From Nocardia bhagyanarayanae (lineage in GTDB: Bacteria > Actinomycetota > Actinomycetes > Mycobacteriales > Mycobacteriaceae): DNA of 64,000 nt. Positions 41,271 through 53,971 of this stretch are shown in pieces. How positions within the stretch are numbered: the first letter of the stretch is position 1; every line of letters starts with the position of its first letter. A program made the position numbers and the translations under genes. The stretch covers positions 5,208,001 to 5,272,000 of the forward strand of contig NZ_VFPG01000001.1 in the NCBI RefSeq assembly GCF_006716565.1. The letters are read 5' to 3'. The notes under the pieces were generated by a model. The model ran no database searches. It worked only from the letters and a program-made list of their open reading frames with translations, and was not told the DNA's origin.

Positions 41271-42230
41271 TCAACGAACTCCGGTGGCGGCCCGGCTGTG
41301 CGTTCGTCCAGAGGTCGCGGGCATTCCGGGCGTGCGCGATGCCGACCGCGGGTGGTAGGCCAGGCAGGCTGCCGAGGCCCCGTCCGCGGCCAGGAAGATC
41401 ACGGTGCGCGCCGTATCGAGCAGACCCACATCCAGTGCGTTCAGGTAGGCGTACACCGGGGCCGCGGTATAGGGAACGCCGATCGATGGAGCGAAACCGA
41501 TCACCGACCGTGCCGGGATGGCGAGTGTGTTCGCCAAGCGGGTGCGGAATCCGGACACGTGGGCTGGAGCCAGCAGCAGGGCCTGCCCCTCGGCGAAATC
41601 GCCTCCGTCGAGTCCCTCCTCGTCGACGCAGGAGCGCACGACCGCCACGGCCAAATCGACCGGGTCCTGCGCACCGGCACGGATGCTGATGACGCGACGG
41701 CCTTCGGTGCCGGCGTCACCCAGATCCACCCAGGCCGTCGGGTCGACCGTGCCGGGGGCCTCACAAGTGTGGAGGCGACCGAAACCGCCTGCGGCAGGCG
41801 AGCTTCCGAGCAGTAGCGCGGCGCCACCGCTGGTGTACGGGAAATCGCTGACGTGGCGCTCGGTGGAGGGGTGGACATCGCCCGCTACGAGCAACGCGTA
41901 CTCCACCCCGCCGGTGGCCAGGAATGCGTCGGCGGTCACGATGGCGTGCAGCAGACCGGTGGCGCCTTGCATCAGATCGAAGGAGAATGTCGGCGTCTGC
42001 CCGGCTTCGTAAGCGAGGCCCAGCCCGATCCGTTTCTGAATGAGCGCCGCTACCGCGGGCTCGCAGAGGTTGCTGTCCCGGAACACCCCCGTGTTGATCA
42101 GCATTCCGATCTCGTCGAGGCCGACATCCGCACGCTGCACGCAGGTGCGCGCCGCGCGTGCAGCCAGTTCGAAGTAGCTGCCGGTGCCGGGGTCGGAGTC
42201 GGTCGCGGCCGAGATGATCATCGTTGCCAT
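41271..42230 (-). CDS. KAS III-like protein without catalytic Cys
   Basis: 319 aa thiolase-fold protein: GVFRDSNLCEPAVAALIQKRIG, FDLMQGATGLLHAIVTADAFLATG, YTSGGAALLLG and SIGVPYTAAPVYAYL follow the FabH layout. At the nucleophile position the motif is MQGATG with Ala90 instead of Cys, and the Asn of the active-site GNT is absent (IGVPYTA); a His in LLAPAHVSG is retained. ATG 42230 has GGAGG 8 bp upstream; ATG 42236 overlaps the stop of the upstream partner. Probably a structural or regulatory half of a heteromer. Confidence 0.8.
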   Translation of the reverse strand: MATMIISAATDSDPGTGSYFELAARAARTCVQRADVGLDEIGMLINTGVFRDSNLCEPAVAALIQKRIGLGLAYEAGQTPTFSFDLMQGATGLLHAIVTADAFLATGGVEYALLVAGDVHPSTERHVSDFPYTSGGAALLLGSSPAAGGFGRLHTCEAPGTVDPTAWVDLGDAGTEGRRVISIRAGAQDPVDLAVAVVRSCVDEEGLDGGDFAEGQALLLAPAHVSGFRTRLANTLAIPARSVIGFAPSIGVPYTAAPVYAYLNALDVGLLDTARTVIFLAADGASAACLAYHPRSASRTPGMPATSGRTHSRAATGVR

Positions 42231-42232
42231 GC

Positions 42233-43285
42233 TCATGCCTCCAAGCGGGAGATGGTCGCGGCGAGGTATCCGGAGACGATTCCCGAGGCCGCCGGGCACA
42301 TGAGGATCTTCGATCCTTTGGGGATCTTTTGTTGCGCGAGATGCTCGTGCAGTACCAGGAAATGCGAAGTCGAGGCGGTATTGCCGTAGTCGTGCAGCAC
42401 GTTGAGCGCTTGCGGCATCGGCGTGCCGAAATGGCGCTCGGTCAAGTCCGAGATGTAGCCGATCGCGGGTCCGCTGAACTGGTGATGGATCCAGTAGTCG
42501 AATTTCTCGCTCTCCCAGCTGCGCCCGGTATCGGCGAGGAAATCAGCCAGCCGGTTGATGGCCTGCTGGTAGCGGGCTTCGTTCTGCATGGCCCGGTTGT
42601 CGGTGTACATCGCCATTCCACCGGTTCGATCACTGGGCATCCCCAGGCAATGCTCGGCGCCGTCGGCGGCGGTCATGAGTTCGACGTAGTGGAGCTCGTC
42701 ATCGTCGTCGCCGCGACCGTCCAAGACGACCGCGGCTGCGGCGTCCCCGACGGTCAGCGACGCGAACTGCGGGTCGTACGGCTGGCTGATCTCCCGTGCC
42801 GCGGTCTCCGCGATCGGGGTGATCTGCTCACCGCTGACCACCAAGCCATTACGCACAACCCCGGCCCTGATCATCCGATCCAGCACCATCACCCCCGTGA
42901 ACATTCCGGCACACGCGTTCGACACATCGAAACACCGCGCCGCGTCCGCGCCGATCGAACGACCCAACATCACCGCGAAAGACGGCGCATAACAAAAGAT
43001 TCCCGCGCCGCGAGTGCGTGTGATGGAGGCCGAGATGATGACGTCGAGTTCGTCGACGGCGTAGCCGGAGTGCTGCAGACAATCATCGATCGCACGCAGT
43101 GCCAAATCGAAGGACGACTCATACCGGTCCGGATGACTGTCATAGACACGTCGATTCCGGATTCCCGTGATCCGCTCGAGGTCCAGCGACTTCGGCACGG
43201 TCAGCTCGGCGGTCAGATCCTCGGTGGAGCGAACAGTTGTCGGTGTGTAGGCACCGATCGACTCGAAACGCGTACGGAGCATCAT
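42233..43285 (-). CDS. KAS III-family 3-oxoacyl-ACP synthase-like enzyme
   Basis: 350 aa. Cys125 in FDVSNACAGMFTG, the His of YWIHHQFSG and the Asn of LHDYGNTAST complete the FabH catalytic triad. ITGIRNRRV and LTVGDAAAAVVLDG are further KAS III hallmarks. It may condense or transfer acyl groups; it lies outside fatty-acid biosynthesis genes. ATG 43285 and 43282 are adjacent. Translationally coupled to the Cys-less KAS III-like gene, so the two are expected to form a complex. Confidence 0.83.
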   Translation of the reverse strand: MMLRTRFESIGAYTPTTVRSTEDLTAELTVPKSLDLERITGIRNRRVYDSHPDRYESSFDLALRAIDDCLQHSGYAVDELDVIISASITRTRGAGIFCYAPSFAVMLGRSIGADAARCFDVSNACAGMFTGVMVLDRMIRAGVVRNGLVVSGEQITPIAETAAREISQPYDPQFASLTVGDAAAAVVLDGRGDDDDELHYVELMTAADGAEHCLGMPSDRTGGMAMYTDNRAMQNEARYQQAINRLADFLADTGRSWESEKFDYWIHHQFSGPAIGYISDLTERHFGTPMPQALNVLHDYGNTASTSHFLVLHEHLAQQKIPKGSKILMCPAASGIVSGYLAATISRLEA

Positions 43286-46535: not shown

Positions 46536-46856
46536 GTAGGCAAGAGGCTCCCACCCGGACGTGGGATCCGGCGGTTCGCACATCGCGAGGGTTCTGGAAG
46601 CGCGGTGTCGAATGCCCGCGGTGCCTGGAACGAACTCACCACATCCGATAACGACCGATTGTGCGTGAGCGAGCCCCACCCCGCGCTAGCGGACAGGCGG
46701 AACGCGCCGGCCGCGGCGTCGTATGGCCGGTGTCGGCGGCGGGACAGACACGACAGCTTCGGACGGCACCGCCCGCGGCCGTTCTCTGTCACCCTTGCAC
46801 GAGACGACATGTGACCGGCGTTACAGTGGTTGCCGAGCAAACGCGAAGGAACCCGA
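46536..46856. other. Intergenic region before the GAF regulator
   Basis: About 320 bp without a credible gene. It contains the upstream region of the GAF regulator; no repeat stronger than a few bases was found. Small frames here (46605-46814) look random. Confidence 0.4.
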
Positions 46857-48143
46857 TTGAGCACAGCAGCGCACGCCAACCCTTGGGTCGCCGTTCGACC
46901 GGATGACGATGTCACACAGTTGGCGCGGAGAATATCGTCCGCGCACCACTCCTTTGTCGAAGGTGTCGACCGCCTGCCGACGCTGCGCCCGGTGGTCCTC
47001 GATTCCTGGCGGCGCAGCCGAAGTAACGGCGTCGACCCGGACGGCTTCGGCGATGCGGTGGATCTCGACGGTGTGGAACTGCAGCGGTACCGGGCCGGAC
47101 ATCCGACGGCGCTGATCCGTCCGGTGGTGCGGAAATTGCTCGTCGAGGACGCCGCCGAGGCCGGACTGCTCGTCGCGATCAGCGATGCCCAGGGACGATT
47201 GCTCTGGATCGAAGGCGATTCGAAGGCCAAGGACCGGGCCCTGGCGATGAACTTCGTCGAGGGCGCGGACTGGAGCGAGGACCGTGTCGGCACAAACGCG
47301 CCGGGCACCGCACTCGCCCTCGATCACCACGTGCAGATCTTCGGAGCCGAGCACTTCAGCCGGGTGGTGCACGAGTGGAGCTGCTCCGCCGCTCCCGTAC
47401 ACGATCCACTCAGCGGCCGGATCATCGGCGCCATCGACATCACGGGCGGTCCGCGAGTCGCCGCGATGGAGGCGTTGGCACTGATCCGGGCGACGGTGCT
47501 GGCCGCGGAGTCCGAGCTGCGACTACACCTGCTCAACTCGCCCGAACCACTCGACCTCACGACCCCGCGTCTACAGGTACTCGGCTCGAACCGACCGACC
47601 CTGACCCGCGACGGCGAGCGAATCCGGCTGTCGCAGCGACATGCCGAGATCCTGCTGCTGCTGGCCGAGCACCCGGAGGGACTGAGCGCCGACCATCTCG
47701 CCATGCTGCTCGACGAATCCGAGCTGGATCCGGTGACGATCCGGGCCGAGCTGTCCAGGGTTCGAAAGATGTTGGGCGCCAACGGCCTGGGTTCGCGCCC
47801 GTACCGACTGCTGATGGACCTCGACACCGATGTGGACGAGGTCCGCCGCGCGCTCGCCCGCGGCGATACGGCGGCAGCGTTGCGCGCTTATCCGGGGCCG
47901 ATCCTGCCGCGTTCGCTCGCACCCGGCATCGACGAACTCCGCGCCGAGTTGCGCGGGCGCCTGCGCGCCGCACTGCTGAGGGCGGGCGACCGTCGGCTGC
48001 TAGCCCGCTGGACCCGTTCGGTCGACGGCCGCGAAGACCTCGCGGCATGGACCGCGTACCTCGCCTCCCTCGACCGGCAGTCTTCGATGTATGCCCAGGT
48101 CGAAACGCAGCTGAGGCTTCTCGATCGGAAACTGGGCATCTGA
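46857..48143 (+). CDS. GAF-domain helix-turn-helix regulator of ethanolamine/aldehyde genes
   Basis: 428 aa. An N-terminal signal region (LDSWRRSRSNGVDPDGF) leads into a GAF domain at ~80-220 (LLWIEGDSKAKDRALAMNFVEGADWSEDRVGTNAPGTALALDHHVQIFGAEHF, the AcoR/GAF signature). The C-terminal part has ILLLLAEHPEGLSADHLAMLLDESELDPVTIRAELSRVRKML, a winged-helix segment, but no sigma-54 AAA domain. TTG 46857 has GAAGGA 8 bp upstream and is preferred over TTG 46830. Probably activates the adjacent aldehyde dehydrogenase and ethanolamine genes. Confidence 0.83.
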   Translation: MSTAAHANPWVAVRPDDDVTQLARRISSAHHSFVEGVDRLPTLRPVVLDSWRRSRSNGVDPDGFGDAVDLDGVELQRYRAGHPTALIRPVVRKLLVEDAAEAGLLVAISDAQGRLLWIEGDSKAKDRALAMNFVEGADWSEDRVGTNAPGTALALDHHVQIFGAEHFSRVVHEWSCSAAPVHDPLSGRIIGAIDITGGPRVAAMEALALIRATVLAAESELRLHLLNSPEPLDLTTPRLQVLGSNRPTLTRDGERIRLSQRHAEILLLLAEHPEGLSADHLAMLLDESELDPVTIRAELSRVRKMLGANGLGSRPYRLLMDLDTDVDEVRRALARGDTAAALRAYPGPILPRSLAPGIDELRAELRGRLRAALLRAGDRRLLARWTRSVDGREDLAAWTAYLASLDRQSSMYAQVETQLRLLDRKLGI

Positions 48144-48151
48144 CCAGTTAC

Positions 48152-48168
48152 TTGCAACTGTCGTGCAA
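48152..48168. promoter_or_regulatory. Candidate GAF-regulator site
   Basis: Inverted repeat TTGCA-N7-TGCAA between the GAF regulator and the aldehyde dehydrogenase gene; the nearest symmetric element to the operon promoter. Confidence 0.5.
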
Positions 48169-48234
48169 CATGAATGCTCCTAGTGTTCCGGATCACACCC
48201 GATGCAGAAATGCCAGGAGAACGAGGAGCATTCG

Positions 48235-49758
48235 ATGACCGTCTTCGCCCGCCCCGGAACACCCGATGCAGCGATGTCGTTCCAGGCCCGGTACGACAAC
48301 TGGATCGGCGGCGAATGGGTGGCGCCCGTCAAGGGCCAGTACTTCGAAAATCCGACACCGATCACGGGTCAGCCGTTCTGCGAGGTCGCGCGCGGCACCG
48401 CGGAGGACATCGAACTCGCCCTCGACGCCGCCCACGCCGCCGCGCCGGCCTGGGGCAAGACGTCGGTCGCCGAGCGAGCCGTCATCCTCAACAAGATCGC
48501 TGACCGCATGGAGGAGCACCTCGACGCGATCGCCCTCGCGGAGACCTGGGACAACGGCAAGCCGATCCGCGAGACACTCGCCGCCGACATCCCGCTCGCG
48601 ATCGACCACTTCCGGTACTTCGCCGGCGCCATCCGCGCCCAGGAGGGTTCGCTGTCGGAGATCGATGCCGATACCGTCGCCTACCACTTCCATGAGCCGC
48701 TCGGCGTGGTCGGCCAGATCATTCCGTGGAACTTCCCGATTCTGATGGCCACCTGGAAGCTCGCGCCCGCCCTTGCCGCCGGCAATGCCGTCGTTCTCAA
48801 GCCCGCCGAGCAGACCCCCGCGTCGATCCTGTTCCTGATCGGCATCATCGGCGATCTGCTGCCGCCCGGTGTGGTCAATATCGTCAACGGCTTCGGCGTC
48901 GAGGCGGGCAAGCCGCTCGCGTCGAGCCCGCGGATCAGGAAGATCGCGTTCACCGGCGAGACCACCACCGGCCGCCTGATCATGCAGTACGCCTCCCAGA
49001 ACCTGATTCCGGTCACGCTGGAACTCGGCGGCAAGAGCCCCAACATCTTCTTCTCCGATGTACTCGCCGCGAATGACGACTACCGGGACAAGGCGCTCGA
49101 AGGCTTCACCATGTTCGCGCTCAATCAGGGCGAGGTCTGCACCTGCCCGTCGCGCGCGCTCATCCAGGCCGATATCTACGACGACTTCCTTGCCGCGGCC
49201 GTGGTGCGCACCAAGGCCGTGCGGCAGGGCGATCCGCTCGATACCGAGACCATGATCGGCGCGCAGGCCAGCAACGATCAGCTCGAAAAGATCCTGTCCT
49301 ACATCGAGATCGGCAAGGGTGAGGGCGCCACGCTACTCACGGGTGGTGAGCGTGCCGACCTCGGCGGCGACCTGTCCGGCGGCTACTACGTCGAGCCGAC
49401 GGTCTTCGCGGGGAACAACGCCATGCGGATCTTCCAGGAGGAGATCTTCGGACCCGTCGTCTCGGTGACCTCGTTCGCGGACTACGACGACGCCATCAAG
49501 ATCGCCAACGACACTCTCTACGGACTCGGCGCGGGCGTGTGGTCGCGCGACGGCGCGGTGGCCTACCGGGCCGGTCGTGACATTCAGGCCGGCCGGGTGT
49601 GGACCAACACCTACCACCAGTACCCCGCGCACGCGGCGTTCGGCGGCTACAAGCAGTCCGGGATCGGCCGCGAGAACCACCACATGATGCTCGACCACTA
49701 CCAGCAGACGAAGAACCTGCTGGTCGGCTACGCGTCGAAGGCGCAAGGCTTCTTCTGA
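48235..49758 (+). CDS. Aldehyde dehydrogenase (acetaldehyde oxidising, ExaC/AldA type)
   Basis: 507 aa. [45 protein letters not shown] with the Glu, and [11 protein letters not shown] with catalytic Cys302 are all present, so the enzyme is intact. The sequence is close to acetaldehyde dehydrogenase ExaC/AldB-type (NAD-dependent). In this operon it would oxidise the acetaldehyde made by EutBC. ATG 48235 follows GAGGAG; the longer 48202 start is not needed. Confidence 0.9.
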
Positions 49759-50315
49759 TGGTCGATGCCACCTCGGCGCTCCCCCGGCGAGTGCGTGCTA
49801 CCGCGGCGGCGATGGATCTGCTCCGTCGCCTCCGTGGTCTGCACGGGCCGCTGATGCTGCACCAGTCCGGCGGCTGCTGTGACGGTTCGGCCCCGATGTG
49901 TTACCCCGCGGACGAATTCGTGATCGGTGATCACGATGTGCTGCTCGGCCTGCTCGACCTGCGGTTGCGGGTCGGCAAACAACCCGAATCCGCTCCCGAG
50001 CCGGCGGATGTCGCGCCGGTGTGGATCTCGGGTCCGCAGTTCGCCGCGTGGCAGCACACCCAGCTGGTACTCGATGTCGTGCCCGGACGCGGCTCCGGCT
50101 TCAGTCTGGAATCGCCCGAGGGGTGGCGGTTCCTCAGTCGCGGAAGGGTTTTCGACCATGCCGAACTAACGGCTCTGGCCACGGCCGAGGTCGTAACCGG
50201 CGAAGGCTGGGCGCGCGGCGAGCGTCCCGCTGTTTCCACCGAACCGCAGGTCGTCGCCGAGGCGGCCGATGCCTGCCCTGTCCCCGGTCGCGGGACATCT
50301 CAGAACTCTATGTGA
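49758..50315 (+). CDS. DUF779 protein
   Basis: 185 aa. LMLHQSGGCCDGSAPMCYPADEF and SLESPEGWRFLSRGRVF match DUF779, a family often encoded directly after aldehyde dehydrogenases. The CCDGSAPMC cluster suggests metal binding. Coupled by TGATG to the aldehyde dehydrogenase. An accessory role in aldehyde handling is inferred from this conserved pairing; its molecular role is not known. Confidence 0.84.
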   Translation: MVDATSALPRRVRATAAAMDLLRRLRGLHGPLMLHQSGGCCDGSAPMCYPADEFVIGDHDVLLGLLDLRLRVGKQPESAPEPADVAPVWISGPQFAAWQHTQLVLDVVPGRGSGFSLESPEGWRFLSRGRVFDHAELTALATAEVVTGEGWARGERPAVSTEPQVVAEAADACPVPGRGTSQNSM

Positions 50316-50340
50316 TTCATTCAGCTAGAAGGAGGTCGCG

Positions 50341-51774
50341 ATGGCGATCCCCACCGACAAGTCCGCACACGAGGACTTCCACAACGAGGACGACGCGTAC
50401 CTCGCGAAGCGAACCCTGAAGTCGGGGTCCGCGGGGTGGCTACTCCTCGCCGGTCTCGGCGTCAGCTATGTGATCTCCGGTGACTACGCCGGGTGGAACA
50501 ACGGCTTGGCGCAGGGTGGTTTCGGCGGATTGCTCATCGCCACCGTAGTGATCGCGGGAATGTATCTCGCGATGGTGCTCGGCATGGCCGAGATGTCCTC
50601 GGCGCTGCCCGCGGCGGGCGGTGGTTATACCTTCGCCCGGCGCGCACTCGGCCCCTGGGGCGGATTCGCGACCGGCGCGGCCGTTCTCATCGAGTACGCC
50701 ATCGCCCCCGCCGCCATCGCGACGTTCATCGGCGCGTATGTCGAATCGCTGCATCTGTTCGGCATCACGGACGGCTGGTGGGTCTACCTCGCCGTCTACG
50801 CGCTGTTCATCGGCATTCATCTCACCGGGGCCGGCGAAGCGCTCAAGGCGATGTTCGTCATCACCGTCATCGCGTTGGTCGGACTGGTCGTCTTCGCTGT
50901 CTCGGCGTGGGATTCGTTCGACGCCGGAAAACTGACCGATATCCCGGCCGACCCTGCGGCCGTGGGCAGTTCGTCGTTCCTGCCGTTCGGGTACTTGGGA
51001 ATCTGGGCCGCGGTGCCGTTCGCGATCTGGTTCTTCCTTGCGGTGGAAGGCGTACCGCTGGCCGCCGAAGAAGCGCGGGAGCCGGAGAAGAACGTGCCCA
51101 AGGGGATCATCATCAGCATGCTGGTGCTGATCGTCACCGGCTCGGCGGTGCTGTTCCTGGCCACCGGTGCGCTCGGCGCCCAGGCGATTTCGACCTCCGG
51201 CAACCCGCTGGTCGAAGCGCTCGGTGATTCGAGCGCCGCCGAACTCGTCAACTACATCGGCCTGGCCGGACTGGTCGCGAGCTTCTTCTCGATCGTCTAC
51301 GCCTACTCGCGGCAGACATTCGCCCTGTCTCGGGCCGGATACCTGCCGACGAGCCTGTCGGTCACCAACGCTCGCAAGGCGCCGATGCTCGCGCTGATCG
51401 TGCCGGGCGTCATCGGATTCACACTTTCGCTGACCGGCAAGGGCGCGATGCTACTGAATATGGCGGTCTTCGGCGCAGCCCTCAGCTACGTGCTCATGAT
51501 GATCAGCCACATCGTGCTACGCGTCCGCGAGCCGCAGATGCCGAGGCCCTATCGCACTCCGGGCGGAATCCTCACCACGGCCTTCGCCCTGGTCATCGCC
51601 TGCGCCGCGGTGATCGCCACCTTCCTCGTCGACCGCACGGCCGCGACCTGGACCCTGGTCGCCTTCGCCGGGTTCATGGCGTACTTCGGCCTCTACAGCC
51701 GCCATCACCTGGTCGCCAACTCGCCCGACGAGGAATTCGCCGCCCTGGCCAAGGCGGAAGAGGAACTCGAATGA
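50341..51774 (+). CDS. eat: Ethanolamine permease (APC superfamily)
   Basis: 477 aa, about twelve helices. GWLLLAGLGVSYVISGDYAGWNNGLAQGGFGGLL is characteristic of ethanolamine permeases Eat, as is FFLAVEGVPLAAEEAREPEKNVPKG. It imports ethanolamine across the membrane. Preceded by GAAGGAGG and followed, with a 4-bp overlap, by eutB. Confidence 0.88.
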   Translation: MAIPTDKSAHEDFHNEDDAYLAKRTLKSGSAGWLLLAGLGVSYVISGDYAGWNNGLAQGGFGGLLIATVVIAGMYLAMVLGMAEMSSALPAAGGGYTFARRALGPWGGFATGAAVLIEYAIAPAAIATFIGAYVESLHLFGITDGWWVYLAVYALFIGIHLTGAGEALKAMFVITVIALVGLVVFAVSAWDSFDAGKLTDIPADPAAVGSSSFLPFGYLGIWAAVPFAIWFFLAVEGVPLAAEEAREPEKNVPKGIIISMLVLIVTGSAVLFLATGALGAQAISTSGNPLVEALGDSSAAELVNYIGLAGLVASFFSIVYAYSRQTFALSRAGYLPTSLSVTNARKAPMLALIVPGVIGFTLSLTGKGAMLLNMAVFGAALSYVLMMISHIVLRVREPQMPRPYRTPGGILTTAFALVIACAAVIATFLVDRTAATWTLVAFAGFMAYFGLYSRHHLVANSPDEEFAALAKAEEELE

Positions 51775-53183
51775 CCGTCTACCACCAGCAGATCGGCGGC
51801 ACCAACTACACGTTCGACGGCCTCGTCGAACTGATGGCCAAGGCGACGCCGCGGCGCGGTGGCGACGAACTGGCCGGATGCGCGGCGGCCTCCGACGCCG
51901 AGCGGGCGGCCGCGCAGTGGGCGCTCGCCGAGGTACCGCTCGATTGGTTCCTCCGGGAACTGCTGGTGCCCTATGAGGATGACGAGGTCACCCGCCTGAT
52001 CATCGATTCGCACGATCGCCTTGCCTTCCAAGCCATCTCGCATCTCACCGTCGGTGGACTGCGGGACTGGCTGATGGAAACAGCGGCGCGCGACGATGCC
52101 GCCGCACGGCTGCGTGCCGTATCGCCCGGACTGACACCGGAAATGGTGGCGGCGGTCAGCAAGATCATGCGCAATCAGGATCTCATCGCGGTCGCACGTG
52201 CCGCCGTGGTGACCGCGGGCTTCCGCACGACGATCGGGCTGCCCGGTCGCTTGGGCACCCGGCTGCAACCCAACCACCCCACCGACGACCCCCGCGGTAT
52301 CGCCGCGGCAACCCTCGACGGGCTGCTGCTCGGCTGCGGCGACGCGGTGATCGGCATCAACCCGGCCACCGACTCACCGCAGGCCACTGCGGATCTGCTG
52401 CACCTACTCGACGAGATCCGGCTGCGCTTCGACATCCCCACCCAGTCCTGTGTGCTCTCCCACGTCACCACCACCATCGGACTGATCGAGGCGGGCGTTC
52501 CGGTGGACCTGGTGTTCCAGTCCATCGCGGGCACCGAGGGGGCCAATGCCGGGTTCGGCGTGAATATCTCACTGCTACGCGAGGGCAACGAAGCGGGCCG
52601 ATCACTCGAGCGGGGCACCGTCGGCAACAATGTGATGTACCTGGAAACCGGTCAAGGTTCCGCGCTCTCGGCGGGCGCGCACCTGGGCACCGGCGGCAAA
52701 CCGGTCGATCAGCAAACCCTGGAAGCCCGGGCCTACGCGGTAGCCCGCGACCTGGACCCGCTACTGGTCAACACCGTCGTCGGCTTCATCGGCCCCGAAT
52801 ACCTCTACGACGGCAAACAGATCATCCGCGCGGGCCTCGAAGACCACTTCTGCGGCAAACTACTCGGCCTGCCCATGGGCGTGGACGTCTGCTACACCAA
52901 CCACGCCGAAGCCGACCAAGACGATATGGATACCCTGCTCACCCTCCTCGGAGCGGCCGGAGCCGCATTCGTCATCGCGGTCCCCGGCGCCGACGACGTC
53001 ATGCTCGGCTACCAGAGCCTCAGCTTCCACGACGCCCTCTACGCCCGTCGCGTCCTCGGCCTGCGCGCCGCACCGGAATTCGAGACATGGCTGCAAGGAC
53101 TGGGCATGGCCGACGCGGCGGGCCGAATACTGCCGGTGGAGATCACCTCCTCCCCGCTGCGCGAATTGACGGGAGCTCTATGA
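51771..53183 (+). CDS. eutB: Ethanolamine ammonia-lyase large subunit
   Basis: 470 aa. Conserved EutB segments include GLPGRLGTRLQPNHPTDD, GCGDAVIGINPATDS, HVTTTIGLIEAGVPVDLVFQSIAGTEGANAGFG and MYLETGQGSALSAGAHLG. It uses adenosylcobalamin to convert ethanolamine to acetaldehyde and ammonia, with EutC. The overlap with eat (ATGA) and with eutC (ATGA) indicates strict coupling. Confidence 0.96.
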   Translation: MTVYHQQIGGTNYTFDGLVELMAKATPRRGGDELAGCAAASDAERAAAQWALAEVPLDWFLRELLVPYEDDEVTRLIIDSHDRLAFQAISHLTVGGLRDWLMETAARDDAAARLRAVSPGLTPEMVAAVSKIMRNQDLIAVARAAVVTAGFRTTIGLPGRLGTRLQPNHPTDDPRGIAAATLDGLLLGCGDAVIGINPATDSPQATADLLHLLDEIRLRFDIPTQSCVLSHVTTTIGLIEAGVPVDLVFQSIAGTEGANAGFGVNISLLREGNEAGRSLERGTVGNNVMYLETGQGSALSAGAHLGTGGKPVDQQTLEARAYAVARDLDPLLVNTVVGFIGPEYLYDGKQIIRAGLEDHFCGKLLGLPMGVDVCYTNHAEADQDDMDTLLTLLGAAGAAFVIAVPGADDVMLGYQSLSFHDALYARRVLGLRAAPEFETWLQGLGMADAAGRILPVEITSSPLRELTGAL

Positions 53184-53971
53184 GCATCGACCGGAGAGCT
53201 CGAGCGCCACAGGACTTCTGGAACAGCCTGCGCTCGAGTACCCAATCCAGGATCGGCCTCGGCCGCGTAGGCGACGCACTGCCCACCACGAGTGTGCTCG
53301 AATTCCGCGCGGCGCACGCCGCGGCCCGCGACGCGGTACACCTGCCACTCGACGTGTCGGCCTTGGCGACTCGCGTCGAAGCGGTCGGCCTCGGCAGCCC
53401 CGTGACCGTCCGCAGCCGGGCCACCAGCCGACCCGAATACCTGCGTCGCCCCGACCTCGGCCGGCTCCCCGCCGACCTGACCGCCGTCCCCCGGACCGGG
53501 GCCGATCTCGGCTTCGTACTCGGCGACGGACTCTCCCCACGCGCGCTCATGGACCACGGCGCACCCCTACTGGCCGCCCTGGCGACGGAACTCGCCGACA
53601 CGTATTCCATTGCGCCACCGGTAATCGCCACCCAAGCCCGGGTAGCGCTGGGCGATCATATCGCCGCCGCACTGGGCGTCCAGACCCTGATCGTCCTCAT
53701 CGGCGAACGCCCCGGACTCTCGGTGGCCGACAGCCTCGGCATCTACCTCACCCACCTGCCGAAACCGGGGCGAACCGACGCCGACCGCAACTGCATCTCC
53801 AATATCCATCCGCCCGAAGGCCTCGGCTACCAGCAAGCGGCGAGGGTGGTAGCCAGCTTGATCTCCGGCGCACGGAGGCTGGGCAGATCCGGCGTCGACC
53901 TCAAGGACACCTCTCGCACTGACGAGCTGGTCTCCCATGCGGCGCTGACGATTCCGGGGCCAACCGGATAG
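53180..53971 (+). CDS. eutC: Ethanolamine ammonia-lyase small subunit
   Basis: 263 aa. TQSRIGLGRVGDALPTTSVLEFRAAHAAARDAVHLPLD, DLGFVLGDGLSP and GERPGLSVADSLGIYLTHLPKPGRTDADRNCISNIHPPEGLGY are the EutC core, including the cobalamin-proximal segment. Overlaps eutB by 4 bp; GGGAGC is its ribosome site. Last gene before a hairpin terminator. Confidence 0.95.
   Translation: MSIDRRARAPQDFWNSLRSSTQSRIGLGRVGDALPTTSVLEFRAAHAAARDAVHLPLDVSALATRVEAVGLGSPVTVRSRATSRPEYLRRPDLGRLPADLTAVPRTGADLGFVLGDGLSPRALMDHGAPLLAALATELADTYSIAPPVIATQARVALGDHIAAALGVQTLIVLIGERPGLSVADSLGIYLTHLPKPGRTDADRNCISNIHPPEGLGYQQAARVVASLISGARRLGRSGVDLKDTSRTDELVSHAALTIPGPTG

Follow-up and report, generated by a model that had tools for sequence, protein, structure and literature searches.

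The 64,000-nucleotide stretch of the Nocardia bhagyanarayanae genome analyzed here (contig NZ_VFPG01000001.1, positions 5,208,001 to 5,272,000; the window) contains two adjoining genes of the β-ketoacyl-acyl carrier protein synthase III (KAS III) family. They lie on the same minus strand, with the catalytic gene upstream. By sequence, their products, here called subunits A and B, are a pair of the LstA/LstB type, distantly related to OleA. They very probably form a heterodimer with a composite active site that condenses two acyl-CoAs head to head. Lipstatin biosynthesis already provides a known example of paired enzymes of this kind. The version described here has no recognizable pathway genes adjoining it.

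Active-site residues of the two subunits

Subunit A (P0001, 350 residues) is encoded at 42233..43285 of the window, to which all gene positions refer. It contains the motifs SNACAG at residue 122, IHHQFS at 266 and GNT at 301, which provide the nucleophile Cys125 (codon 42911..42913, minus strand), His268 (42482..42484, minus) and Asn302 (42380..42382, minus). Subunit B (P0002, 41271..42230, 319 residues from its conserved start) has the full KAS III fold without this triad. The aligned columns are occupied by Ala for Cys, within the motif MQGATG, Pro for His and Val for Asn. The codon of the Ala is 41961..41963 on the minus strand. The initial annotation had described an intact upstream protein and a partner with Ala in place of Cys and the Asn lost, and our alignments bear out both. 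Neither protein reaches the curated cut-off of 285 bits of the OleA model NF006720, with scores of 117.4 for P0001 and 41.7 for P0002.

P0002 retains a different residue, Glu59 (Glu57 from the conserved start; codon 42060..42062, minus strand). In a HMMER alignment it matches the Glu of the LEPS motif in OleA, E117 in the construct numbering. This residue of OleA is designated Glu117β, where we take β to denote the partner subunit. The OleA active site is given as Cys143 and Glu117β in an excerpt of PMC4090904, and the title of a further reference describes Glu117 as key to the condensation. The Glu is invariant among the B proteins aligned, being present in 251/251 aligned rows, in 17/17 and 71/71 locus rows and in 103/103 proteins, although the sets share members and contain many closely related rows. 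With this residue retained, P0002 is not simply dead.

Subunit A has Ala100 (codon 42986..42988, minus strand) at the equivalent position, where other A lineages have Glu. The substitution is found in all 31 rows of clade 1, the Nocardia clade to which the window pair belongs. Clade 2 retains the Glu (8/8), as do the fused proteins (120/120), L047 and L078b (2/2), the loci added later (15/15) and the loci of public genomes (70/70). Thus all 215 sampled A rows outside clade 1, including that of the lipstatin-like locus L115, carry it. In an OleA-like dimer the Glu of A would serve only the pocket of B. Since B has no Cys, loss of the Glu from A fits an obligate heterodimer. It could alternatively reflect drift at a site that is no longer relevant, which is the same statement from the other side. 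With B lacking the Cys and A lacking the Glu, neither homodimer could have a complete site, and these residues are best explained by an obligate heterodimer in which a single composite site is formed. In one clade 1 pair, L077 (7466-9315), A has Ser for the catalytic Cys and B looks intact, which may be an active variant or decay.

A Cys at a shifted position is found in some B homologues. The motif NGACG, with the Cys one residue past the usual nucleophile position, occurs in 69 of 103 B proteins that belong neither to clade 1 or 2 nor to the fusions; a corresponding count of 70/71 loci is biased, as FDLMNGAC served as a search seed. The shifted Cys is present in only 8 of 121 members of the window protein's clade and absent from P0002, so that the initial concern about a displaced nucleophile applies outside this clade and not to the window protein. 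It probably cannot stand in for the nucleophile, because the C128A variant of LstA is reported to be inactive.

The A/B junction (42228..42245, minus strand; tGGAGGcaTGAgcATG) includes a Shine-Dalgarno-like GGAGG within the end of A, the stop codon TGA and, 2 nucleotides on, an ATG for B. It also contains an ATGA, from which B would start at 42236 and have 321 residues (41271-42236), with the Ala and Glu numbered 92 and 59. From the second ATG, at 42230, they are Ala90 and Glu57. The GGAGG spacing is normal for the second ATG, which is also the start in relatives whose junction lacks the ATGA. B therefore probably starts at 42230, still tightly coupled to A. The pair had initially been described as having an ATGA overlap together with Ala90, which imply incompatible starts. 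Ala90 agrees with the start at 42230; the ATGA does occur at the junction, but B probably does not start there.

Conservation of the pair and relation to known systems

Rather than lying apart in most genomes, A and B are adjacent or fused at 130 of 132 B loci. Some of these loci are not independent, as with L116 and L196, which are one contig. A first set of 41 loci, centered on the window pair and on its paralogues (the window locus W and L046-L085), has 42 A genes. Each of them is followed by a co-oriented B, in one case as a fusion; the pairing in L077 was read by eye and with tblastn. In a second set, 16 of 17 B-bearing loci are paired, and L128 has a B with no A seen. In named public genomes, 72 of 73 are paired. 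In L204 (Nocardia seriolae NBRC 15557), B is preceded by just the last 47 residues of A. Compared with the sister locus L049, A has a ratio of nonsynonymous to synonymous substitution rates (dN/dS) of 0.18 and B one of 0.31, indicating purifying selection on both. These ratios and the constancy of the pairing led us to set aside chance or decay as explanations. Analyzed with two FabH proteins, A forms one clade and B another, which shows a single origin for each subunit. The A and B trees are concordant (r 0.96 over 60 pairs).

The closest characterized counterpart is LstA/LstB from lipstatin biosynthesis in Streptomyces toxytricini, also encoded by adjacent genes. C128, H271 and N305 of LstA have the same spacing, 143 and 34 residues, as C125, H268 and N302 of P0001. 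LstB has no triad and an essential Glu, E60, as P0002 has no triad and E57; the comparison is based on published residue positions, homology and operon type. A review (PMC12141560) states that neither LstA nor LstB is soluble without the other, that the variants LstA C128A, LstA H271A and LstB E60A are inactive, and that counterparts of LstB occur widely, in every case coclustered with LstA. L115 is lipstatin-like by its content of A, B, an AMP ligase, a 3β-hydroxysteroid dehydrogenase (3β-HSD), a nonribosomal peptide synthetase (NRPS) and a formyltransferase, and its A and B are of the same types as the window pair. The genes are in what we take to be the order of lst. Unlike the lipstatin cluster, the window pair has none of the other four genes adjoining it, and its A has Ala where that of L115 has Glu.

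OleA from Xanthomonas campestris shares the KAS III fold and an active site of Cys and the partner-subunit Glu117. However, it is the product of one gene and forms a homodimer with two complete sites, whereas in the window these functions are divided over two proteins. NltA/NltB from nocardiolactone biosynthesis occur in the same genus. The clade 2 A-B-OleC-OleD operon, also present at another place in this genome, has the genes expected of nlt and is presumably that operon, while the window pair belongs to clade 1 and lacks such an operon. An mSystems paper (PMC7413640) counts 36 nocardiolactone clusters in Nocardia. Our literature search, whose coverage did not extend to the primary papers on lst and nlt, found no paper on clade 1 or on the Glu loss from A.

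Genomic settings of the pair and its relatives

Among 20 open reading frames scanned next to the window pair, there is no AMP ligase of the OleC type and no 3β-HSD of the OleD type, nor, in agreement with the initial annotation, any alkylquinolone or polyketide gene. The neighbors include a TetR gene, an F420-dependent oxidoreductase, a multicopper oxidase and a cutinase. A and B are the only genes conserved between the window locus and L049. Of the 31 loci of clade 1, 11 are accompanied by OleC, OleD and a hydrolase on the opposite strand, and 14 have a short-chain dehydrogenase/reductase (SDR) directly upstream. The remaining six (W, L049, L075, L076, L077 and L078) have neither setting beside the pair, OleC being found in L078 only at a neighboring second pair. 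A strong OleC match is present in 46 of the 73 public-genome loci (with OleD in 43), just a weakly similar ligase in 23 and none in 4. Absence of OleC is thus a minority state, in which the window is not alone. In the B tree, W and L049 fall inside the SDR-linked group (support 0.96-1.00). The A tree also places them among SDR-linked loci, although less firmly. They therefore probably lost the SDR linkage. A further setting, possibly another pathway, is seen in L174-L178 and other Nocardia loci, with A, B, a 250-residue protein and a ligase weakly similar to OleC (54-88 bits); some also have an OleD homologue.

Homologues of A and B are side by side at four places in this genome: an operon of the type A-B-OleC-95-residue protein-OleD, a related A-B-OleC-OleD cluster, the window pair, and an NRPS fusion. 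Both OleC homologues of the genome (E up to 1e-40) lie at other A-B pairs. The fused pair forms the C-terminus of a 1762-residue NRPS protein with condensation, adenylation and thiolation domains, encoded behind a type I polyketide synthase (L048:4817-10105; contig C1 of the same genome, about 3244816-3250104). This architecture is found in 395 database proteins from Nocardia and many mycobacteria. In all 120 that were listed, the A domain has the full Cys-His-Asn triad, while the B domain has the Glu and no Cys at that column. The fused pair may serve as a module that releases or joins chains. A 397-residue protein of a clade 2 operon (L085:4567-5760) has no Pfam match; the LstE-like NRPS of L115 matches it at 248 bits. 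Elsewhere in the window, 46830-53971 is likely an ethanolamine catabolism cluster, with an ExaC-type aldehyde dehydrogenase, an amino-acid permease and EutB.

Proposed reaction and alternative explanations

Heterodimerization, which we regard as almost certain, is inferred, and so are the substrates and the chemistry, the latter from OleA and LstAB. A fatty acyl-CoA would acylate A on Cys125. Glu59/57 of B would reach across the dimer interface into the pocket of A, where it would be the base acting on the second acyl chain. The outcome would be a non-decarboxylative head-to-head Claisen condensation that yields an α-alkyl-β-ketoacid. The pocket of B itself would be dead, and A lacks the Glu that would have served it. 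The product is probably a lipid derived from the α-alkyl-β-ketoacid, which could be reduced by an SDR, decarboxylated to a ketone, or passed on in trans to the OleC/OleD homologues that accompany two of the genome's other A-B pairs. It is possible, though we hold this only tentatively, that with its segregated site the pair has left the OleC/OleD pathway for another long-chain lipid. That lipid might then be a ketone, or an α-alkyl-β-hydroxyacid formed via an SDR, rather than a β-lactone or an olefin.

The initial annotation had likened the pair to PqsB/PqsC of Pseudomonas aeruginosa, a heterodimer in which likewise one KAS III subunit is catalytic and its partner degenerate. The likeness holds for this layout and for the loss of all three triad residues from P0002. 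If it extended to function, A would join an acyl-CoA to a small non-acyl partner such as a β-ketoacid, with B being only structural. Excerpts of PMC4807248 indeed describe PqsB as having only a supporting, structural role, but they also report that PqsC lacks the triad Asn and has Val299 instead, whereas P0001 keeps Asn302. The Glu of B is invariant, relatives of the pair are located in OleC/OleD operons, and PqsB is neither among the matches listed for P0002 nor among the best 60 of 74 for the B profile. The pathways also differ. We therefore consider a PqsBC-like reaction quite unlikely. LstA/LstB is by sequence the better model, with PqsBC an analogue and not a member of the family.

A non-condensing pair is slightly less probable again. 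A would then make esters or amides with B as a scaffold, similar to KAS III proteins of the CerJ or PhlABC type. KAS III relatives do serve as acyltransferases, and CerJ and PhlA turn up as weak sequence or fold matches. However, the match of CerJ to the B profile is weak (E 8.5e-04), and Cys-His-Asn with a partner Glu is the condensing set of OleA and LstAB. The least probable alternative is a decaying relic of a lost pathway. The window locus and L049 have no OleC/OleD or SDR neighbor, and A has lost its Cys in L077 and is reduced to its end in L204. Against this, the dN/dS values relative to L049 are low for both subunits, and the catalytic residues and the ribosome-binding junction are all intact in the window.

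If the composite-site heterodimer is correct, clade 1 records the transition from a homodimer with two identical sites to a heterodimer with one. The order of losses would be the nucleophile from one copy first, then the useless base from the other. The pair would also mark head-to-head condensing enzymes in Nocardia that searches keyed to OleC or to β-lactone clusters could miss.
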